Shown: piece by piece, positions 84 to 11,277 of the stretch | Numbering within the stretch: the first letter of the stretch is position 1 | Layout of the letters: every line of letters begins with the position of its first letter | From: Xanthomonas sp. F10 | GTDB lineage: Bacteria > Pseudomonadota > Gammaproteobacteria > Xanthomonadales > Xanthomonadaceae | Length of the DNA stretch: 64,000 bases | NCBI RefSeq assembly: GCF_014206815.1 | Contig: NZ_JACHNP010000004.1 | Span: 124,001-188,000 of the forward strand | Direction: 5' to 3' | Made by a program: the position numbers and the translations under genes | The notes under the pieces: model-generated | What the model saw: the letters and a program-made list of their open reading frames with translations, nothing else | Databases searched by the model: none | What the model was told of the DNA's origin: nothing

Positions 84-120
84 TATAAAGCATTGACAAA
101 ACTGCTTTGTCAAATACATG
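84..120. promoter_or_regulatory. Divergent promoter/operator region between the LysR-like gene and aceB
   Basis: A perfect inverted repeat, TTGACAAA-N5-TTTGTCAA, lies at 93-113, between the divergent start codons at 57 and 166. Each arm contains TTGACA, so each can act as a -35 box. On the plus strand TTGACA (93-98) is followed after 16 bases by TACATG. On the minus strand TTGACA (113-108) is followed by the AT-rich TTTATA near 90-85. A regulator bound to the repeat could control both directions. The repeat is directly seen; its regulatory role is inferred. Confidence 0.5.
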
Positions 121-165
121 CGGTGGCAGCACGGTGGAGCCCCGGAAACATCGAGGAATCCCCAC

Positions 166-1809
166 ATGTCCGCCCCCGCTTTTGCTGCCGTTCCCGACAC
201 GTCCACGCGCTCCACGCCGGGCATCGCGCTCACCGCCTCGCTGGCCGGCCAGGACGCCCTGCTGCCGCCGCCGCTGCTCGGCCTGCTGGTGTCGCTGCAC
301 CGGGCGATCGAGCCGGAACGCCAGGCGCGGCTGGCGGCGCGGCGCGAGCGCCAGGCGTTCTTCGACGCGGGCGGCCTGCCGGACTTCCGCGACGACACCC
401 GCGCGATCCGCGAGGGCGACTGGCAGGTGGCGCCGCTGCCCGAGGCGCTGCAGGACCGCCGGGTCGAGATCACCGGCCCGACCGATCCAAAGATGGTCAT
501 CAACGCGCTGAACTCCGGCGCCAAGGTGTACATGGCCGACTTCGAGGACTCGACCGCGCCGACCTGGCGCAACCTGGTCGCCGGCCAGCGCGCGCTGGCC
601 GAGGCGGTCGCCGGGACCCTGACCTTCACCGCGCCGGCTGCGCGCGACGGCACCCCGGGCAAGCGCTACGCGCTGCGCCCCTATGAGGAACAGGCGGTGC
701 TGATCGTGCGCCCGCGCGGCTGGCACCTGGACGAGAAGCACGTGCTGGTCGACGGGCAGCCGCTGGCCGGCGGCCTGTTCGACGCGGCGCTGTTCGCCTT
801 CCACAACGGCCGCGCGCTGCAGGCCAAGGACCGCGGCCCGTACCTGTACCTGCCCAAGCTGCAGTCGATGGAGGAAGCGGCGCTGTGGGAAACCGCGCTG
901 GCCCACATCGAGGACATGCTCGGCCTGCCGCAGGGCCAGATCAAGGTCACCGTGCTGATCGAGACGCTGCCGGCGGTGTTCGAGATGGACGAGATCCTGC
1001 ACGCGCTGCGCGGGCGCATCGTCGGCCTGAACTGCGGCCGCTGGGACTACATCTTTTCCTACCTGAAGACCTTCCGCCGGCATCCGGACCGGGTGCTGCC
1101 CGAGCGCGGCCAGGTGACCATGACCCAGCCGTTCCTGAAGGCCTACTCGGAACTGCTGATCCGCACCTGCCACCGCCGCGGCGCGCACGCGATGGGCGGC
1201 ATGGCCGCGCAGATCCCGATCAGCCACGACGAGGCGGCCAACGAGCAGGCGATGGCGCGGGTGCGCGCGGACAAGCTGCGCGAAGTCACCGCCGGCCACG
1301 ACGGCACCTGGGTGGCGCACCCGGCGCTGATCCCGATCGCCCGCGCGGTGTTCGACGAGCACATGCGCACGCCCAACCAGCACGCGGTGCGCCGCGAGGA
1401 CGTGCAGGCCGACCGCGACACGCTGATCGCCCCGTCCGCCGGCACCATCACCCGCGCCGGCTTCGAGGGCAACATCGAAGTGTGCGTGCGCTACCTGGCG
1501 GCGTGGCTGGACGGCAACGGCTGCGTGCCGATCCACCACCTGATGGAGGACGCCGCCACCGCCGAGATCAGCCGCAGCCAGCTGTGGCAGTGGCTGCACG
1601 TGGGCGGCCTGCACCTGGACGACGGCACCGCCATCGACTTCGCCCTGTTCGACGCCTGCCTGCGGCAACTGCCGGCGCGGCTGGGCGAGCGCGCGCTGCT
1701 GCCGGGCGGGGCGCGCGTGGACGAGGCCATCGCGCTGCTCGACCGGCTGACCCGTGACGAAGAACTGGCCGACTTCCTGACCTTGCCGGCCTATCAGTTG
1801 ATTGATTGA
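166..1809 (+). CDS. aceB: Malate synthase A (glyoxylate shunt)
   Basis: Condenses glyoxylate with acetyl-CoA to give malate, the second step of the glyoxylate bypass, in the cytoplasm. The protein has 547 residues, normal for the A isoform. The family signature [11 protein letters not shown] is visible at about residues 287-297, in the TIM-barrel core. The ATG at 166 was preferred over one at 118 because it follows a GAGGAA ribosome-binding site and because the upstream extension would begin close to the promoter inverted repeat. aceA follows 119 bases downstream in the same direction, so the two shunt enzymes probably form one operon. A LysR-type regulator is likely divergent. Confidence 0.97.
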
Positions 1810-1811
1810 AC

Positions 1812-1842
1812 GCGGGGATTGGGGAGTCGGGATTGGGGATTC
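1812..1842 (+). repeat. GGGGATT-type intergenic repeat, copy 1
   Basis: A G-rich repeat built from GGGGATT and GGGAGTC units starts three bases after the aceB stop codon. About 30 identical bases recur at 27160-27189, just after the pobA stop, with an inverted relative at 27250-27270. This is a dispersed non-coding repeat found at gene ends. Its presence inside the aceB-aceA gap may affect the transcript, but no function is known to me. Confidence 0.8.
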
Positions 1843-1928
1843 GCAAGCGCGGATTCCCGTCCTCCCCGAAGCCGACCGCGACACCCCCACCGTTTCATCG
1901 CTGCATCCATTTTCGAGGAGAACGCCAG

Positions 1929-3224
<1,296 letters not shown>

Positions 3225-3457: not shown

Positions 3458-4501
3458 ATGAGCTGCGACAGCGCCGCATCCACCGCACGCGGCACAATTT
3501 CCAACGCTGCGGTCTCTCCGAAGCCGAACGAGCTGGCGGTGCTGACCGCGGCGGAATTGCGCCTGTTTTCCGAATTCGGCCGCGCCCGTACGGTGCGCGC
3601 CGGCGAGGTGCTGTTCCGCCGCGGCGACGGCGGCAGCGCCATGTTCGTGATCACCAGTGGCGTGATCGATCTGGATTTCGGCGAGGACCTGGTGGTGAAG
3701 CATCTCGGCCATGGCGAATTCTTCGGCGAACTGGGCCTGTTGATCGGCAACCACATGCGCAGCGCCGATGCCATCGCCGCCAGCGACGGCGCGCTGGTGG
3801 AACTGGACCACGACGATTTCCAGCGCCTGGTCGAGCGCGACCCGGGCGTGGTCGCCTACTTCCTCCGCCGCACCATCGTGCGCATGGTGATGAACGAGCA
3901 GACCCTGATCCGCCAACTGCGCCGGCGCAATCGCGACCTGGAAGCGGCGCTGGACAACCTCTACGCCACCACCCACCAGTTGACCCAGACCGAAGAGCTG
4001 GTGCGCACCGACGAACTCACCGGCCTGCACAACCGCCGCGGGCTGATCCTGCGCCTGCAGGAGTGTCGCCGCGACGGCCGCTCGCCCGGCCCGGGCCTGC
4101 TGCTGATCGACTGCGACCGCTTCAAGCACATCAACGATGCGCACGGCCACCTGGTTGGGGACCGCGTGCTGCAGAACGTCGCCAACATCCTGCGTTCGGT
4201 GGCCGGGCCGGACGACATCGCCTGCCGCCTGGGCGGCGACGAGTTCTGCCTGCTGGTGGCCGCCGGCAACGTCGAAGACCTGCGCCGCATCGGCGAGTTC
4301 GTACTCGCCACCGTGCAGAACCTGCTGGGCGTGCCGCACCCGGCGCCGCACATCTGCCCGGTCAGCATCGGCATCAGCCGGGTCGACCCGCATTCGGACT
4401 GGAACGACTGGTACGCCAACGCCGACGCGGCGTTGTACGAGGCCAAACGCCAGGGCGGCAACCGGCTGTACTGGCACGACCTCGCCTCCGCCAACTGCTG
4501 A
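3458..4501 (+). CDS. Diguanylate cyclase with N-terminal cyclic-nucleotide-binding domain
   Basis: Predicted to make c-di-GMP from two GTP. Residues about 25-145 form a Crp-like cyclic-nucleotide-binding fold (the region GDGGSAMFVITSG and the glycine-rich FFGELGLLIG stretch). A short linker then leads to a GGDEF domain at about 185-345. The active-site GGDEF is intact at residues 259-263. The upstream inhibitory site, normally RxxD, reads GPDD here, so product feedback is probably lost. No membrane segment is seen. An extended -10 element (TGCTATGCT, 3411-3419) precedes the gene. A second cyclase gene starts 29 bases downstream, suggesting a linked nucleotide-signalling pair. Confidence 0.9.
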   Translation: MSCDSAASTARGTISNAAVSPKPNELAVLTAAELRLFSEFGRARTVRAGEVLFRRGDGGSAMFVITSGVIDLDFGEDLVVKHLGHGEFFGELGLLIGNHMRSADAIAASDGALVELDHDDFQRLVERDPGVVAYFLRRTIVRMVMNEQTLIRQLRRRNRDLEAALDNLYATTHQLTQTEELVRTDELTGLHNRRGLILRLQECRRDGRSPGPGLLLIDCDRFKHINDAHGHLVGDRVLQNVANILRSVAGPDDIACRLGGDEFCLLVAAGNVEDLRRIGEFVLATVQNLLGVPHPAPHICPVSIGISRVDPHSDWNDWYANADAALYEAKRQGGNRLYWHDLASANC

Positions 4502-4530: not shown

Positions 4531-7059
4531 ATGACCGACGTCCCCGCACCGCCGTCCGAGGTCCCGCAGCTCCGCACCCTGCTGCTGACCGACCTGTGCG
4601 ACTCGGTGGCGCTGGTGGAAAAGCTCGGCGACGCCAACGCGGCCGAACTCTTCAAGCGCCACGACTCGCTGGTGCTGGAACTGCAGCAACGCTGGCACGG
4701 GCGCCTGATCGATCGCTCCGACGGCCTGCTGCTGCTGTTCGAACGGCCCATCGACGGCCTCGGCTTCGCCCTGGACTACAGCCGCGGCCTGCACGCACTG
4801 GGCGCGCCGCGCGGGCTGGAGCTGAAGGTGCGCGCCGGCCTGCACGTCGGCGAGGTGCTGACCTGGCGCAACAGCGACGCCGCGGTGCAGGTGGGCGCCA
4901 AGCCGCTGGAAGTGGAAGGCCTGGCCAAGCCGACCGCGGCGCGGCTGATGACCCTGGCCCGGCCCGGACAGATCCTGCTCTCGGCAGTGGCCGAATCGCT
5001 GACCCACCGCGCCGCGCGCGAACTGGGCGAGCGCGGCGAACGCCTGCTGTGGAAATCGCATGGCCGCTGGCGCTTCAAGGGCGTGCCCACCCCGCTGGAG
5101 ATCTACGAAGTCGGCGAGATCGGCAACACCCCGCTGCGCGCGCCCAAGCCCACGCCCAAGGCCTGGCGCGACATCCCGCTGTGGCGCCGGCCGGCGGCGC
5201 TGGCGGCGGAAGCGGCGCTGATCGCCGCGTTCGCGGTCGGCGCCTGGTTCGTCACCCGCCCGCAGCCGGCCATCGCCTTCGCCGAGCGCGACTGGGTCGT
5301 GGTGGGGGATTTGCGGAATCTCACTGGCAATCAGGTACTTGACGAATCGCTGGACCAAGCGTTCCGGATCAGCCTTGAACAGTCCCGTTACGTGAATCTG
5401 CTGAGTGACCTCAAGGTACGGGACACCTTGGTGCGGATGCAGCGTAGCCCCGACAGTCGCATTGATCGCGCCACCGCGTCGGAAATTGCTCAGCGCGACG
5501 GAGCAAAAGCCGTCCTCTTGCCGACGGTCGCTGAGGTAGGGGGGCGATTGAGGGTAAGCGTCGACGTCGTCGATCCTACAAGCGGTGCAACGGTCCTCGC
5601 GCTGTCGAAAGACGGAAAAGGGTTGGATTCAGCCTTGGCGTCGATCGACGACGTCACCGCCCAGTTGCGCGACCAGTTGGGCGAAGCCATGGATTCCATT
5701 GCCCAGAGCGCACAGCCCTTGCCACAGGTCACCACCGCCAGCATCGATGCGCTGCGAGCGTACTCACTGGGTGTCGAGGCCTACGCCCGAAAAGAAAACG
5801 ACTCGGCGCTTGAATATTTTAATCGGGCTTTGGAGCTGGACAAAGATTTTGCCCTGGCTCATGCCGCTATCATGCGGATATATGTGAGCCGTGCTGCACC
5901 CGCGTTAGCCGAATCGCACCTTTCTGCGGCATTGAACCACTTGGAACGGCTCCCAAAGCGAGATCAGCTCTATCTCTTGGCGTGGAAATCTCAATACTTT
6001 CCACAGAAGGGAGATGATCCCGCACGCAGGTGGAAGCTCCTGGCGCAGCTGTATCCAGATTATTATGCGGGCGCTGCTAATTACGCCTGGATTTCAATGG
6101 AGAATGGCGACTATCCAGAGGCCATTAAATATTTGAAATCGGCTGTCGTGGCAAACAATCCACTACGAGGCTATGCTCTCGATCAATTGGCGAGAGCGGA
6201 GCTTGCGCAGGGCAGATACCAAGAGTCCTTCGAGTACTTTCGACAATCGGAGGAGGAGTTCGGCGCATCCCCTGGTCTGGGAAGCGCGCTCGCACTGGCT
6301 GCATCCGGCGATCTTCTGGCGGCTCAACGTCTCATCGATCATCGTGTGGAAGGCAACGGGTATCAAGCTAGGCCGGCGGACATCATTACACGCATTGCCG
6401 TTCTTGCTCAGAGCGGCAATCTGGTGGAAGCCGCGTCCCTGGCGGATCAGGAGGCCAGGCAGGCCAAGCCAGAGTCTGAACTGCTGTACCATGACTTCAA
6501 GTTGATCGCCTTGTCTTTGCGCGCAACGGAAATGCAAGATGCCGATTTGCAGAGTGAGCTTCTAAAGTGCGCGAGCGAGCTATCAAAAAGTGTATCTGCA
6601 AAGCCAAGTGTTGAAAGGTCTGACTACGCGGCCTTGGCACTTGCTTCAGTGTATCTGCTGCAACGTGCCGGTCTAAAAAAGCTTCCAAATGAATTGCAAG
6701 GCCTCGTTCGCATGGCTGAGCGTTCTAGCGATGCGACAGCCAGTAGAATGGCTGGTCTGATCAGGGCAAAGCAACTGTTGCAAGAGGGAAATCCCCGATT
6801 GGCCGTCACTTTGCTTCAATCGCAAATGAATGGAAAAGAGCTGTTCCAGTCCAGGATTGTCATGAGAGATGCATTGGATCGTATTGGAGATTCTGAGGCG
6901 GTTCTTGCGCAGGATCGTGCGATCGCGGCCGCCCGTGGGCAGGGGTACGCGGAAGTTGCGGGTAGCTCTATTTTTCAGCCCCTTAATGTCGCAGATGCTG
7001 CTGCAGCAATGCGAAGAATTAAGGGGCTGAACCTCGATCGGTCAACTGCTCGTCTTTAG
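4531..7059 (+). CDS. Class III nucleotide cyclase with TPR-like C-terminal region (putative peptide-modification-system cyclase)
   Basis: 842 residues. The N-terminus resembles a class III adenylate/guanylate cyclase catalytic domain (about 10-190), with TDLCDS containing the probable metal ligand Asp21 and a second Asp in DRSDGLLLLF. A likely membrane helix follows at about 222-243, then a long helical, tetratricopeptide-like region from about 400 (AYSLGVEAYARKEN, then ALEYFNRALELD). This architecture, beside a small leader-like peptide gene and a SagB-like dehydrogenase, matches the family I know as putative peptide modification system cyclase (TIGR04510). Composition changes abruptly inside the gene: 83 percent GC at 5161-5220 against 45 percent at 6121-6180, the break lying just after the membrane helix near 5300. 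The 3' end overlaps the convergent peptide gene by 18 bases. Substrate and activity are unknown. Confidence 0.78.
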   Translation: MTDVPAPPSEVPQLRTLLLTDLCDSVALVEKLGDANAAELFKRHDSLVLELQQRWHGRLIDRSDGLLLLFERPIDGLGFALDYSRGLHALGAPRGLELKVRAGLHVGEVLTWRNSDAAVQVGAKPLEVEGLAKPTAARLMTLARPGQILLSAVAESLTHRAARELGERGERLLWKSHGRWRFKGVPTPLEIYEVGEIGNTPLRAPKPTPKAWRDIPLWRRPAALAAEAALIAAFAVGAWFVTRPQPAIAFAERDWVVVGDLRNLTGNQVLDESLDQAFRISLEQSRYVNLLSDLKVRDTLVRMQRSPDSRIDRATASEIAQRDGAKAVLLPTVAEVGGRLRVSVDVVDPTSGATVLALSKDGKGLDSALASIDDVTAQLRDQLGEAMDSIAQSAQPLPQVTTASIDALRAYSLGVEAYARKENDSALEYFNRALELDKDFALAHAAIMRIYVSRAAPALAESHLSAALNHLERLPKRDQLYLLAWKSQYFPQKGDDPARRWKLLAQLYPDYYAGAANYAWISMENGDYPEAIKYLKSAVVANNPLRGYALDQLARAELAQGRYQESFEYFRQSEEEFGASPGLGSALALAASGDLLAAQRLIDHRVEGNGYQARPADIITRIAVLAQSGNLVEAASLADQEARQAKPESELLYHDFKLIALSLRATEMQDADLQSELLKCASELSKSVSAKPSVERSDYAALALASVYLLQRAGLKKLPNELQGLVRMAERSSDATASRMAGLIRAKQLLQEGNPRLAVTLLQSQMNGKELFQSRIVMRDALDRIGDSEAVLAQDRAIAAARGQGYAEVAGSSIFQPLNVADAAAAMRRIKGLNLDRSTARL

Positions 7060-7359
7060 GTAGTTTTCAACCTTGTTTGCTTCGAAGCAATGCGGGTTGT
7101 GGAACGCCGTGTCGGAAACGAGGTAGGACAGAAGTTGCTCTCTTGCAGCGATCAGCTCCTCCTTGGATGCCATTATTCCGACTTCCAGGCAGCTTGTGTC
7201 GGCATCGGCGTCCAAAATGATGCCGATGGACGCGAGTGCAGCGACAGGGTCGCTTTGGAATGCGGCGCGGAAGGCGTCGTCGTTAATAAGAGCGTCAAGT
7301 AGCGCTGCTGCACTAACCGGATCCAGGGGAGAGGGGTGCGGGGGCTGATTATTTGCCAT
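7042..7359 (-). CDS. Putative modified peptide precursor (nitrile-hydratase-leader-like)
   Basis: 105 residues. The N-terminal half (about 15-50) has the helical ALLDALINDDAFRAAF and DPVAALASIGI pattern of nitrile-hydratase-type leader peptides. The C-terminal half would be the core and holds the only two cysteines, Cys57 in TSCLEV and Cys91 in NPHCFEANK. This fits the small family I know as putative modified peptide (TIGR04509), always found with a cyclase and a SagB-like dehydrogenase as here. It is convergent with the cyclase (18-base tail overlap) and divergent from the dehydrogenase. It is AT-rich compared with the genome. No good ribosome-binding site is seen before the ATG. The mature product, if any, is unknown. 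Confidence 0.75.
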   Translation of the reverse strand: MANNQPPHPSPLDPVSAAALLDALINDDAFRAAFQSDPVAALASIGIILDADADTSCLEVGIMASKEELIAAREQLLSYLVSDTAFHNPHCFEANKVENYLKTSS

Positions 7360-7477
7360 GACCAGTTTGCTCTGATTGTGAGATTAGGGCTTGGATTTGA
7401 CCAGGTTTGCGGTGCAACGGAGTGCATATCGGCAGAAAGCCGGTAAAGTTTAGCCCCGAGGTTGCAATGAGGATGGT
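7360..7477. promoter_or_regulatory. Divergent intergenic region between precursor peptide and dehydrogenase
   Basis: 118 bases, AT-richer than the flanking genome, separating the start codons of the peptide (minus) and the SagB-like gene (plus). A possible plus-strand -35 TTGACC lies at 7397-7402, but no convincing -10 at normal spacing was found. A GAGGA ribosome-binding site lies at about 7469-7473. Both genes probably start transcription here. No clear operator palindrome was noticed. Confidence 0.4.
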
Positions 7478-8650
7478 ATGAAGCTGCGTCGCTGCGGAGT
7501 TGTATTTTTTGAGCCAAGGGAATCGGTTGGCTTCGACTTGATGTCACTGCTTGCTGGCGCAGCTGGCCTTAGTCGTCAAACCCGTTGGCTCGCGCTGGCT
7601 CCTCATCTGGACGATGAGGTCGAAGTGGATCAGGGCGAGCGGGAGGTCTTGGGCGCTGTCAGCCCAAGCAACTGGATCGACATGGCATCCGTTGTTGGGT
7701 ACGGCGTAAGCTTAATTGATGGACTTTTGGAAAAAGGTCTACTGATAGGCGATACAAGCGCGCACAGCGCAATGCGCGAGCGCGATGACACTGTGCGCTC
7801 GGCGTATTGGTGGCCTGCAGCGGCGATGCTACACAAGTTTTGTCGCTGGAAGGATCTTGATAGCGTTGCTTCCATGGAGGCCAACAAGTTGACCACGGCG
7901 CCTGAGCTGCGCGACAAACTCGGTCCGCCGCCTCCCGAGGTCATCTCAAGATCGCGCTTGGGAGACGATATTGAGCTCCCCAGGCTCGCGGTCGACGAGT
8001 ACGAAAAGCTGATGGCGTCGAGGACGACGTGCAGAAATTTCGATCAAGAGCGACATCTTCCGGTCGATCTCTTTTCGCGAATGATGCAGCGAGTGGTGAT
8101 GGCGCAATCCGTTGTCCGCCTACAGGACGATACGGCGTTTCTAAAAAAGAATGTTCCTTCGGCCGGTGGACTGCATCCGACAGAGGTATATCTGGTAGTC
8201 CAACGGGTGGAGGGCATTGCGCCCGGTCTCTATCATTATCACCCCGTGAACCATGCCTTGGAACTGATTTCTGTCCCGTCGGCCGGTTTGGCTGACTTGG
8301 CGAGGAAGATGTTGGCGGGCCAGCATTGGTTTGCGGATGCGCATGTGCAACTCATTCTGGCCCCGCGCTATGCGCGTAGCTTTTGGAAGTACCGGCTTCA
8401 TTCGAAAGCCTACCGCGCGGTGACGCTCGACGTCGGCCATATCTCCCAGGCGATTTATTCAAGTGCTACCCAACTCGGGCTCGGTGCTTTTGTCACGTCG
8501 GCCATAAACGACGTCAATGTTGAGAATGCCTTTGGTCTCGACCCTTTGCTGGAGGGGCCGCTCGCCATCTGCGGCTTTGGTTGGAGGTCGAAATCGATGG
8601 TGACGACAGAGTTTGACCCCCTCAATGAGGTGTGGTCGGGCCAACAGTAA
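7478..8650 (+). CDS. SagB-like putative peptide maturation dehydrogenase
   Basis: 390 residues. The C-terminal part (about 175-385) is a SagB/nitroreductase-type FMN-dependent dehydrogenase domain, recognised from SRTTCRNF, the PSAGGLHPTEVYLVVQRVEG stretch and LYHYHPVNHALE, all typical of this fold. In azol(in)e peptide systems SagB oxidises azoline rings to azoles. The N-terminal 170 residues are not recognised. I assign it to the family called putative peptide maturation dehydrogenase (TIGR04511), known from the same three-gene neighbourhood. No cyclodehydratase (YcaO) or transporter gene is next to it. Codon use is AT-rich like the peptide and unlike the cupin gene that follows, which points to lateral transfer of the set. 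Confidence 0.78.
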   Translation: MKLRRCGVVFFEPRESVGFDLMSLLAGAAGLSRQTRWLALAPHLDDEVEVDQGEREVLGAVSPSNWIDMASVVGYGVSLIDGLLEKGLLIGDTSAHSAMRERDDTVRSAYWWPAAAMLHKFCRWKDLDSVASMEANKLTTAPELRDKLGPPPPEVISRSRLGDDIELPRLAVDEYEKLMASRTTCRNFDQERHLPVDLFSRMMQRVVMAQSVVRLQDDTAFLKKNVPSAGGLHPTEVYLVVQRVEGIAPGLYHYHPVNHALELISVPSAGLADLARKMLAGQHWFADAHVQLILAPRYARSFWKYRLHSKAYRAVTLDVGHISQAIYSSATQLGLGAFVTSAINDVNVENAFGLDPLLEGPLAICGFGWRSKSMVTTEFDPLNEVWSGQQ

Positions 8651-8652
8651 GC

Positions 8653-9174
8653 TTAGCCATGGCGACCAGTTTGCGGATCTGCCTGCTTCTGCCAATACGT
8701 CAGCAACGGCCCCTCCGCCCCGAGCAGCGGATCGCTCTGCGGAAACGGCACGTTGGCGATCCGTTGCAGTCTCTCGGCGCTGGGCAGTTCCCGGCAGATA
8801 TCCCAGTCCTGCCCGTCGGGATAAGCGCCGACCACCAGGAAGTCGGCGCTGGCCGATAGCCGGCAATGGCCGCTACCGGCCGGCAGCAGCAGGGCGTCGC
8901 CGGCCGCGAGCGCAACCTCGATGCCGCCCGGGCCGCCGAGCAGCACGCGGGCGCTGCCGCAGGCGACGCCCAGCACCTCGTGCGCGGTGGAATGGTAGTG
9001 GTGATAGTCATAGATGCCGTCGCGCCATTGCGGCGGCCAGCCGTGCGCCGCGAAGCGGCGTTCGAACCCGTCGGCGTCCAGGGCGCCGGCAGACTGCCGG
9101 TAGTGCAGCACCGGCAGGAACGGGTGGTTGGGTACCCAACCGTGTGGCGGCAGTTGCCAGTGGTCCAGTGACAT
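8653..9174 (-). CDS. Cupin-domain protein (YjlB-like)
   Basis: 173 residues, a single small beta-barrel cupin. The metal-binding motif region is visible around residues 55-75 (YDYHHYHSTAHEVLGV), followed by the second cupin motif near GDALLLPAGSGHCRL. YjlB-type cupins have no established reaction; the fold usually binds a divalent metal and a small ligand. The gene is convergent with the dehydrogenase with only two bases between their stop codons, and is transcribed in the same direction as the SulP transporter upstream. GC-rich and normal for the genome, so it marks the right boundary of the AT-rich island. Confidence 0.8.
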   Translation of the reverse strand: MSLDHWQLPPHGWVPNHPFLPVLHYRQSAGALDADGFERRFAAHGWPPQWRDGIYDYHHYHSTAHEVLGVACGSARVLLGGPGGIEVALAAGDALLLPAGSGHCRLSASADFLVVGAYPDGQDWDICRELPSAERLQRIANVPFPQSDPLLGAEGPLLTYWQKQADPQTGRHG

Positions 9175-9342: not shown

Positions 9343-10965
9343 TCAGTGCAGAGGCACGTGCTCCACGTCGCCCCGATGATGGGTGCCCAGCCGACCGACC
9401 ATCGCCGCACTGCCCACGTTCAGTCCCACCACGTGGACCTGGGCGCCGTGGCGGCGGAATTTCAGCACCACCTGGTCCAGCGCGCCGATGGCGCTGATGT
9501 CCCAGACATGCGCATGGCTCAGATCCACGGTGACCCGCGCTGGCGCATGGGCGAAGTCGAAGGCGCCGGCGAAGCTGCCGGCCGAGGCGAAGAACAACTG
9601 GCCGCGGATGCGGTAGGTGTGGCCGCCGTCCGCGTCCTCGCTCCGCTCGATGTCGAGCATGCGCCCGACCTTGCGCGCGAAGAACAGCGCCGACAGCAGC
9701 ACGCCGGTGAGGACGCCGCGCGCCAGATCGTGGGTGGCCACGGTCACCGCGACGGTGCCGAGCATCACCACGCTGGAGCTGGCCGGGTGGGTGCGCAACT
9801 GCGCCAGCGAGCGCCAGCTGAAGGTGCCGACCGAGACCATGATCATCACCGCCACCAGCGCAGCCATCGGGATCTGCCGCACCCAGGCGCCGGCAAACAC
9901 CACCAGCAGCAACAGCACGCTGCCGGCGACCAGTGCGGACAGGCGGCCGCGCCCGCCGGACTTCACGTTGATCACCGACTGCCCGATCATCGCGCAGCCG
10001 GCCATGCCGCCGAACAGGCCGCTGACGATGTTGGCCACGCCCTGGCCCACGCATTCGCGGTTCTTGTCGCTGGGCGTGTCGGTCATGTCGTCGACGATCT
10101 GCGCGGTCATCATCGACTCTAGCAGGCCGACCACCGCCATCGTCGCCGCGACCGGGAACACGATCCGCAGCGTCTCCAGCGTCCACGGCACCGCCGGCAA
10201 CAGCAGGCTGGGCAGGCGGTCGGGCAGTTGCCCCTTGTCGCCGACAGTGGGCACATGGATGCCGAAGTACAGCGCCAGCCCGGTCAGCAGCACGATCGTC
10301 ACCAACGGTGGCGGCACGGCCACGCCGCGCGTCCAGCGGTGCCCGAGCACCAACGCCAGCGCGCCACCCACGGCCACCGGCAGCAGCGTCCATGGCGCCA
10401 TGCTGCCCGCGGTCAATGCCGCGCCCAGCACCAGCAGCCACAGGCCGATACCGGGGAAGCTGCGCCGCGACAGCCAGGGCAGGCCGTAGATCAGCAGCAA
10501 GCCCAGCGCCACCAACGGATACACCGGCGCCGGCACGCCGATCAGTTCGGGCAGTTGCGCCATGAAGATCAGGATCGCCAGGGCGTTGACGAAACCGGTG
10601 ATCACCGAGCGCGAAACGAAGCGCATCAGCGCGCCGAGCTTGAACAGCCCGGCCAGGATCTGCAGCACGCCGGTCAGCAGCGTGGCCGCCAGCAGGTAGT
10701 GCAGGCCGTGCTGCTTGACCAGGCCGATCATCAGCAACGCCATCGCGCCGGTGGCGGCGGAGATCATGCCGGGGCGTCCACCGGCGAAGGCGATGGTCAC
10801 GCAGATGCAGAAGGCGGCATAGAGGCCGATCTTGGGGTCGACCCCGGCGATGATCGAGAACGCGATCGCCTCGGGAATCAGCGCCAGTGCCACGACCAGG
10901 CCGGCGAGCACGTCGCCACGGAGATTGCCGCACCATGACTGGCGCAGGGAAGAGGAAAACTTCAA
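9343..10965 (-). CDS. SulP-family inorganic anion transporter with STAS domain
   Basis: 540 residues. Multiple hydrophobic segments from about residue 20 ([20 protein letters not shown] is the classic SulP start) to about 400, followed by a C-terminal STAS domain (about 430-535, [20 protein letters not shown]). SulP carriers move sulfate, bicarbonate or related anions across the inner membrane; the substrate here is unknown. The start is probably the TTG at 10965, because AGGAG lies 8 bases upstream of it. A GTG at 10983 would place that AGGAG inside the coding region. No sulfur-assimilation genes are adjacent, so bicarbonate or another anion is equally possible. Confidence 0.92.
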
Positions 10966-11277
10966 GGTAAACGCTCCTGACACCGCCCTGTCGCAGGGCA
11001 GTGCTCGCTAGATGCAAGGGAAAACCAGCAACCTGCGGCCTGCCGTCGAGGGCGGACCGATGCATGTCGCGGGTGTCAGGGTGGCGTCATGGGAGAGCGT
11101 GGGGAGCAGGCGCGCGCCGGCGGGGCGCGGTGCGCAAGTATACGCGATGCCTCTCCAGGGACCCAGCCGCGTCGCGCGCCGTGTGATTGGGTGCATGTCG
11201 AGGCCGCCGCCCGACTCACGTTGCGCTCACTTTCGCCGCGCAGAATGTGCGGATCGCAACGCCGTATGGAGCCGGCC
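10966..11277. other. Intergenic region between SulP gene and hypothetical gene
   Basis: About 310 bases with the leader of the SulP gene (minus) on the left and that of a small hypothetical gene (plus) on the right. It is likely to hold divergent promoters, but I found no convincing -35/-10 pair, palindrome or RNA structure. Confidence 0.4.

Follow-up and report, generated by a model that had tools for sequence, protein, structure and literature searches.

The closest described relatives of the locus examined here are XC_0249 and XC_0250 of Xanthomonas campestris. The XC_0250 protein has guanylate cyclase activity and a TPR half termed uncharacterised, and XC_0249 binds cyclic GMP (cGMP) with a KD of about 0.29 uM, which enhances its synthesis of cyclic di-GMP; mutating either gene reduces biofilm and virulence (PMC3770947, accessible part). 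A 2019 review keeps the wording 'uncharacterized' for the TPR half in its accessible portion (PMC8042644), and the available part of the original paper (An et al. 2013, PMC3770947) names no input signal and is silent on the peptide, on the dehydrogenase and on any swapping of the TPR half. Here we describe the corresponding locus of Xanthomonas sp. F10, contained in a stretch of 64,000 nucleotides (positions 124,001 to 188,000 of contig NZ_JACHNP010000004.1), hereafter the window. A gene for a cyclic nucleotide-binding (cNMP) GGDEF protein, a membrane guanylate cyclase gene, an antisense peptide gene and a SagB-type dehydrogenase gene form one unit in which, as comparisons of related loci show at the sequence level, the TPR half of the cyclase, the peptide gene and the dehydrogenase gene are swapped as a single cassette. 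We put at about even the chance that this is a peptide-signalling locus with the guanylate cyclase as its receptor.

A similar layout is found in the ComQXPA locus of Bacillus, where a modifying enzyme, a precursor and the sensor part are likewise adjacent and jointly polymorphic and the output part is conserved (PMC4408185, accessible part). The present locus has the arrangement typical of such pherotype loci: its enzyme, peptide and sensor part are neighbours that vary jointly, and its output part is conserved. The agr locus of staphylococci is comparable. In contrast to ComQXPA and agr, the sensor here is predicted to be a guanylate cyclase rather than a histidine kinase and the enzyme a flavin dehydrogenase, the host is Gram-negative, the peptide gene is antisense and secretion is hypothetical. 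RRNPP receptors such as Rap and NprR are cytosolic, whereas the TPR repeat of the present cyclase is predicted to lie outside the membrane, and a kinship in sequence with them would be hypothetical. A small protein of the NHLP clan is likewise encoded with a SagB-type enzyme in the Os1348-Os1351 cluster of Pseudomonas sp. Os17, an antibiotic-related cluster with transporter genes nearby, in the available text on which the word cyclase is absent (PMC7726476). The library models TIGR04509, TIGR04510 and TIGR04511 bear names that speak of a peptide modification system and of maturation, with no tie to cGMP, to a GGDEF gene or to cassette exchange. Because the association of the three families is already present in the model library, the trio as such is not new. 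What is new, as far as literature searches show, is its tie to the cGMP pathway and the exchange of a cassette with an edge inside the receptor gene; a search conducted largely below full-text level found no paper linking the peptide or the enzyme to that pathway.

The edges of the cassette (Table 1) emerge from a comparison of the window with 17 other loci of the genus, one of the same species and one (L044) with a related cassette. In the remaining 15, the first 200 aligned codons of the cyclase gene match the window at 86-96% of nucleotides, a figure that drops to 31-59% past about codon 340, and blast matches extending from upstream end at 5403-5781. Similarity resumes within the dehydrogenase gene in ten of these 15 (mostly at 66-70%) and only past it in the other five. 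Across the wider set, the conserved N-terminal part of the cyclase (N-part) is at least 0.95 identical in 227 pairs of loci, in 147 of which the C-terminal part containing the TPR repeats (C-part) is less than 0.5 identical. Base composition is about 72% G+C in cyclase codons 1-215, 54-60% past the membrane segment and 57% in the peptide and dehydrogenase genes; an initial annotation of this DNA had called the genes AT-rich, which is true of the 3' part and wrong for the first 215 codons of the cyclase.

Table 1. Features of the locus, in window coordinates.
Feature	Position	Strand	Remarks
cNMP-binding and GGDEF diguanylate cyclase gene	3458..4501	+	Pfam cNMP_binding, GGDEF; XC_0249 counterpart; predicted cGMP receptor
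Class III guanylate cyclase, membrane, with TPR half	4531..7059	+	842 amino acids (aa); TIGR04510; XC_0250 counterpart
Catalytic domain, conserved, cytosolic (predicted)	4531..5190	+	aa 1-220; mean pairwise identity 0.68-0.82, 132 loci
Single predicted membrane segment	5197..5253	+	aa 223-241; hydropathy peak
Alpha/beta domain opening the predicted periplasmic part	5290..5616	+	AlphaFold2 model residues 19-127; mean identity 0.66
Exchangeable cassette	5403..8650	.	left edge within cyclase gene, right edge in or just past dehydrogenase gene
TPR solenoid, predicted sensing part	5743..6951	+	AlphaFold2 model residues 170-572; TPR families
Hypervariable solenoid middle	6166..6720	+	mean identity 0.23, 132 loci
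Peptide precursor, NHLP-related	7042..7359	-	105 residues; TIGR04509; leader-like region conserved, tail variable
Intergenic stretch between divergent peptide and dehydrogenase genes	7360..7477	.	sequence
SagB-type dehydrogenase gene, flavin mononucleotide (FMN)	7478..8650	+	390 aa; TIGR04511

The same-species strain departs from the window at 14 of the 3250 cassette sites, whereas divergence is 1.5% for the GGDEF gene, 4.0% for the cyclase N-part, 2.2% for the aceB-aceA genes upstream and 5.8% downstream. This looks like a recent spread of the cassette, a comparison that is suggestive only, since some 250-base stretches of the upstream genes diverge equally little. Remains of earlier occupants are also seen. 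Two loci of a type with an antisense dehydrogenase gene (L053 and L054) retain, at the right edge, the 3' fragment of an ordinary dehydrogenase gene, and in L128 older peptide genes and a whole dehydrogenase gene persist behind the new set; we read these leftovers as footprints of replacement.

The relationship between the parts was quantified by distance correlations with 999 Mantel permutations, which do not fully remove kinship. With GGDEF and N-part distances controlled, the C-part correlates with the N-terminal part of the dehydrogenase at 0.69 and with the peptide at 0.60 (0/999 permutations each). The N-part correlates with its own C-part at just 0.07 when the GGDEF distance is controlled (99/999; raw 0.33), and under the same control with the dehydrogenase at 0.15 (11/999) and the peptide at 0.06 (84/999); GGDEF against dehydrogenase gives 0.09 (43/999). 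The catalytic part follows the GGDEF gene instead, at 0.68 with dehydrogenase and C-part controlled. The coupling within the cassette is slightly leaky: of the 86 pairs whose peptides are at least 0.8 identical, 3 have C-parts below 0.5, as do 8 of the 63 pairs whose dehydrogenase N-terminal parts are at least 0.8 identical. Pairs with a C-part identity of at least 0.8 are all close relatives (N-part at least 0.93), whose matching peptides carry little weight by themselves. Since the C-part is saturated among distant pairs, the case against saturation as the cause of the decoupled distances also relies on the antisense type, the same-species strain pair and trees.

The eight loci with an antisense dehydrogenase gene have C-parts, peptides and enzymes that are closest to one another, and their GGDEF genes and N-parts group with those of their own relatives. 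Quick trees were built from 42 of the 132 loci, picked after the distances were known and with the antisense group defined by gene strand. On the GGDEF plus N-part tree the antisense type requires eight changes, its single clade is rejected by the approximately unbiased test (p-AU 8.7e-5), and the genus, with 14 rows, is recovered as a clade. In the C-part tree it is the antisense type that forms a single clade (support 100), joined by the long branch of L103, and the genus clade is rejected (p-AU 1.9e-40). The trees show that the cassette has been exchanged between genera.

All three proteins of the trio exceed the curated cut-offs of the families to which the initial annotation had assigned them, the cyclase with 1090 bits against TIGR04510 (cut-off 400), the peptide with 89.1 bits against TIGR04509 (cut-off 34) and the dehydrogenase with 547.7 bits against TIGR04511 (cut-off 240), and the genome holds a single copy of each above cut-off. 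The TIGR04509 match also supports the leader of the peptide as NHLP-related, and its two cysteines are at residues 57 and 91 as described; the peptide has no match in Pfam. The dehydrogenase additionally matches TIGR03605 and PF00881 and has a predicted FMN-dependent nitroreductase fold. The three genes are indeed adjacent over 4531-8650, with the correction that the peptide gene is on the minus strand between the other two, converging with the cyclase gene (18-bp overlap) and diverging from the dehydrogenase gene. The families and their linkage were thus rightly recognised, and what had been overlooked is the GGDEF gene, which ends 29 bp upstream of the cyclase gene, together with the exchangeable cassette.

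The three family models were searched at their curated cut-offs in 297 Xanthomonadaceae genomes, where the cyclase is found in 184, the peptide in 185 and the dehydrogenase in 182; 180 genomes hold all three families and 187 hold any (lists compared by hand), which bears out the co-occurrence expected of a linked system. The seven exceptions are all multi-contig assemblies: G054 has the cyclase alone, and in G007, G011, G024, G120, G126 and G175 one member is partial, broken or missing. A cyclase match above 700 bits defines 173 loci in the family, or 141 once identical cyclases are collapsed, and the main counts use 132 loci in which all four genes were found and the aligned cyclase is at least 760 aa, with identical cyclases counted once and near-identical species retained. 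The GGDEF gene is upstream of the cyclase gene in 168/173 loci (136/141 non-redundant) and is part of the same four-gene unit as the cyclase, peptide and dehydrogenase genes. The exact order GGDEF, cyclase, antisense peptide and dehydrogenase is present in 143 of the 173 loci, and the remaining 30 mostly have additional peptide genes or an antisense dehydrogenase gene. Lysobacter enzymogenes, a non-pathogenic species, is among the carriers (L138). Ten loci were taken from elsewhere in the order, outside the family; in eight of them the cyclase gene is followed by an antisense peptide gene and a dehydrogenase gene, six of these eight having a GGDEF gene as well; in L224 the GGDEF gene is present and the dehydrogenase gene antisense, and in L221 a contig end interrupts the locus before the cyclase. 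Because this order recurs both across the family and in eight of the ten loci from elsewhere in the order, a chance neighbourhood is ruled out. TIGR04511 is above cut-off in 43 of 200 genomes of an order sample, other families included, and TIGR04509 is found in 3 of 229 genomes of a class sample, all three from Xanthomonadaceae.

The window's cNMP-GGDEF and cyclase pair are, on domain and residue evidence, the counterparts of XC_0249 and XC_0250, with which they have in common the adjacency of the genes, the domains, six cyclase residues, a guanine-reading N-E pair and the GGDEF motif. The six XC_0250 residues mutated in the accessible part of PMC3770947 are all present in the window cyclase at a constant offset of +7. 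Of these six, D34, D64 and A143 are kept in all 132 loci, A154 in 130, L66 in 118 and L150 in 107; D21 and R138 are likewise kept in 132/132. In the GGDEF protein, N of the guanine-reading pair is present in 125/132 loci and E in 132/132, as is the GGDEF motif. The best PDB sequence match of this protein is 5h5o_A ('Diguanylate cyclase'), over residues 27-152.

The cyclase itself is divided between a catalytic part and a strongly diverging outer part, the solenoid middle of which has mean identities of 0.16-0.25, as against the catalytic values in Table 1. The count of lysine plus arginine is higher before than after the membrane segment in 132/132 loci, on which basis the catalytic domain should be cytosolic and the TPR half periplasmic; a second hydrophobic peak is found elsewhere in the cyclase in three of these loci. 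In the AlphaFold2 model of the outer part (mean predicted local distance difference test score, pLDDT, 92.7), an alpha/beta domain precedes an extended TPR solenoid. Alignments for structure models had 64 and 39 rows, and that for the peptide 47.

A plausible scenario is that the SagB-type enzyme would oxidise the precursor encoded on the opposite strand, probably within the variable tail, and that the matured peptide would reach the periplasm or the outside, where the TPR domain of the cyclase would sense it and alter cGMP synthesis by the cytosolic domain; the peptide as ligand and the sign of its effect are conjectural steps here. The cGMP would then act on the cNMP-GGDEF protein encoded upstream, and hence influence cyclic di-GMP and biofilm. 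Work on X. campestris has demonstrated, for the counterpart proteins, that cGMP is made and bound, that cyclic di-GMP synthesis is activated and that biofilm is affected (PMC3770947, accessible part); what the present comparisons contribute, from sequence, is the four-gene unit, the topology signature and the exchange. As the putative receptor half, peptide and enzyme are exchanged as one cassette, relatives would fall into signal types like those of ComQXP or agr, and the block exchange suggests a guanylate cyclase through which cells read a peptide of their own making. The fuller proposal of a Gram-negative pheromone system, in which a membrane guanylate cyclase senses an oxidised ribosomal peptide made by the cell itself, and signal types spread between genera as a cassette with one edge within the receptor gene, we hold with slightly less than even confidence.

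The chemistry proposed for the enzyme differs from that of its known relatives. Its structure model (pLDDT 93.3) has a fold matching BmdC, McbC and ThcOx, in a comparison that covered mainly residues 164-384, and modelled residues 1-91 form strands followed by three helices, resembling the recognition elements of ribosomally synthesised and post-translationally modified peptides, although a leader-binding domain is not claimed. This fold is that of azoline dehydrogenases. The initial annotation saw no YcaO cyclodehydratase next to the genes, and in fact PF02624 has no match in the whole genome (an E. coli control was detected); without YcaO the usual azoline substrate would be missing, so the reaction is probably another oxidation. 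Cysteine at the residue-57 position is common and not universal (74/123 peptides), and at 91 it is present in 32/111.

Export is the weakest link in signalling by a secreted peptide. As had been remarked of exporters, none lies beside the peptide gene, and no C39-peptidase exporter is present in the window; the two C39-peptidase genes of the genome, candidate exporters, lie about 88 kb away (G000:C4:219536) and on another contig (G000:C1:2091214), and homologues of their products are near 1/178 loci (L095), with queries cut at locus ends. C39 matches occur in 140 of the 182 genomes with the dehydrogenase and in 67 of the 115 without it (odds ratio 2.4, Fisher p 7.7e-4, uncorrected for kinship). 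The other 42 carriers, including some single-contig genomes (G271, G281), have no such match, and C39 export is therefore not required as a general route. By eye the precursor has no signal peptide. These absences sustain a rival in which an unsecreted peptide acts in the cell or membrane on its own cyclase, which it must match, and which accounts equally well for the co-variation of peptide and C-part. We nonetheless judge such an internal regulator quite improbable, as the variable part of the cyclase is predicted to be outside the membrane and communication or competition would account for block exchange between genera more readily than a private regulator would. In an antimicrobial system, a further rival, the matured peptide would inhibit relatives, the outer half of the cyclase would be a sensor or immunity part and competition would give rise to the variation. 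The link of the Os17 pair to antibiotic activity (PMC7726476, accessible part), a match of the window peptide to the Os1348 family model NF038399 at 3.4e-9, below its cut-off, and the several peptide genes of some loci favour this account; the scarcity of C39-type transporters near these loci, where Os17 has transporter genes nearby, and the constant partnership with a cGMP/cyclic di-GMP module, which points to signalling, tell against it without excluding killing, and we rate it as unlikely.

Two further explanations fare worse. The wording of the TIGR04510 model and the initial annotation have the cyclase take part in peptide maturation, for which the model name and the gene neighbourhood are the evidence. 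XC_0250 makes cGMP and the cGMP effector is encoded next door (PMC3770947, accessible part), the cyclase residues listed above are retained in the numbers given and the catalytic part tracks the GGDEF gene and hardly the dehydrogenase or peptide. The outer half of the cyclase does co-vary with peptide and enzyme, which a receptor might be expected to do; the claim is unsupported, and the idea strikes us as very improbable. Defence loci commonly exchange gene blocks, and a Pycsar-type anti-phage system would combine cyclic nucleotide signalling with a diversifying sensor; the cNMP domain of the GGDEF protein does give weak matches to Pycsar effector models (best 5.1e-9). No PADLOC model is matched at 1e-3 by the cyclase, the peptide or the dehydrogenase, the effector here is a diguanylate cyclase and the published phenotype is regulation of biofilm and virulence; this view, too, we consider very improbable.

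For signalling through the cyclase, the neighbouring peptide and enzyme provide a concrete candidate input for the Xanthomonas cGMP pathway, published in 2013 with none named in the accessible part. Should it be true, the missing input of that pathway would have been found, bacterial cell-cell signalling would gain a receptor of the cyclase type and perhaps also a novel chemistry of peptides, and the strong variability of half the cyclase gene would be explained. Animals have peptide-receptor guanylate cyclases, of which this would be a bacterial counterpart. Both crop pathogens and biocontrol strains belong to the group concerned. A further interaction partner of XC_0249 is RpfG of the diffusible signal factor (DSF) quorum-sensing pathway (PMC3749722, accessible part), and two cell-cell signals may therefore meet at XC_0249.

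Among the sequences flanking the cassette, malate synthase and isocitrate lyase genes lie upstream (window 118-3224), and downstream are a cupin-like gene with weak Pfam matches (8653-9174, minus strand) and a SulP-type sulfate permease gene (9343-10983, minus strand), at which similarity to relatives returns. A promoter scan of 7000-7600 found no consensus. A CRP/Clp-type site in the gap between peptide and dehydrogenase genes occurs with at most two mismatches in 17/110 regions compared with 33/550 shuffles, a weak signal that was not used. Neighbour families were taken from the 141 loci by a crude gene call (greedy longest frames), with 14 listed and ten representatives scanned, which is not exhaustive. 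Four of the ten have Pfam families (malate synthase, S9 peptidase, biotin carboxylase and Mg chelatase), the six without are probably shadow frames, and no exporter is among these ten. The family represented by malate synthase is upstream in 44/141 loci, indicating that the site can persist while the cassette changes. A prolyl-oligopeptidase-type family (29/141 loci; represented by L098 10320-12848, minus strand) is probably an ordinary flank.

Among the various unusual loci, L116 (G022) and L117 (G067) stand out as extensive arrays in which one or two cyclases are surrounded by at least three dehydrogenase genes and by several peptide genes, the latter on both strands. L218 (G618), one of the eight ordered loci outside the family, has a single GGDEF gene and a second cyclase and dehydrogenase after the first set. 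L126 (G011), L107 (G027) and L073 (G231) are apparently broken copies, the signs being that matches to cyclase and dehydrogenase fall in several frames, that one dehydrogenase is split in two and that another dehydrogenase match stops early. L191 (JAHREJ010000008.1) is titled Bacillus subtilis SK7B5 and has a cyclase domain 70% identical to that of the window; it looks mislabelled or contaminated.

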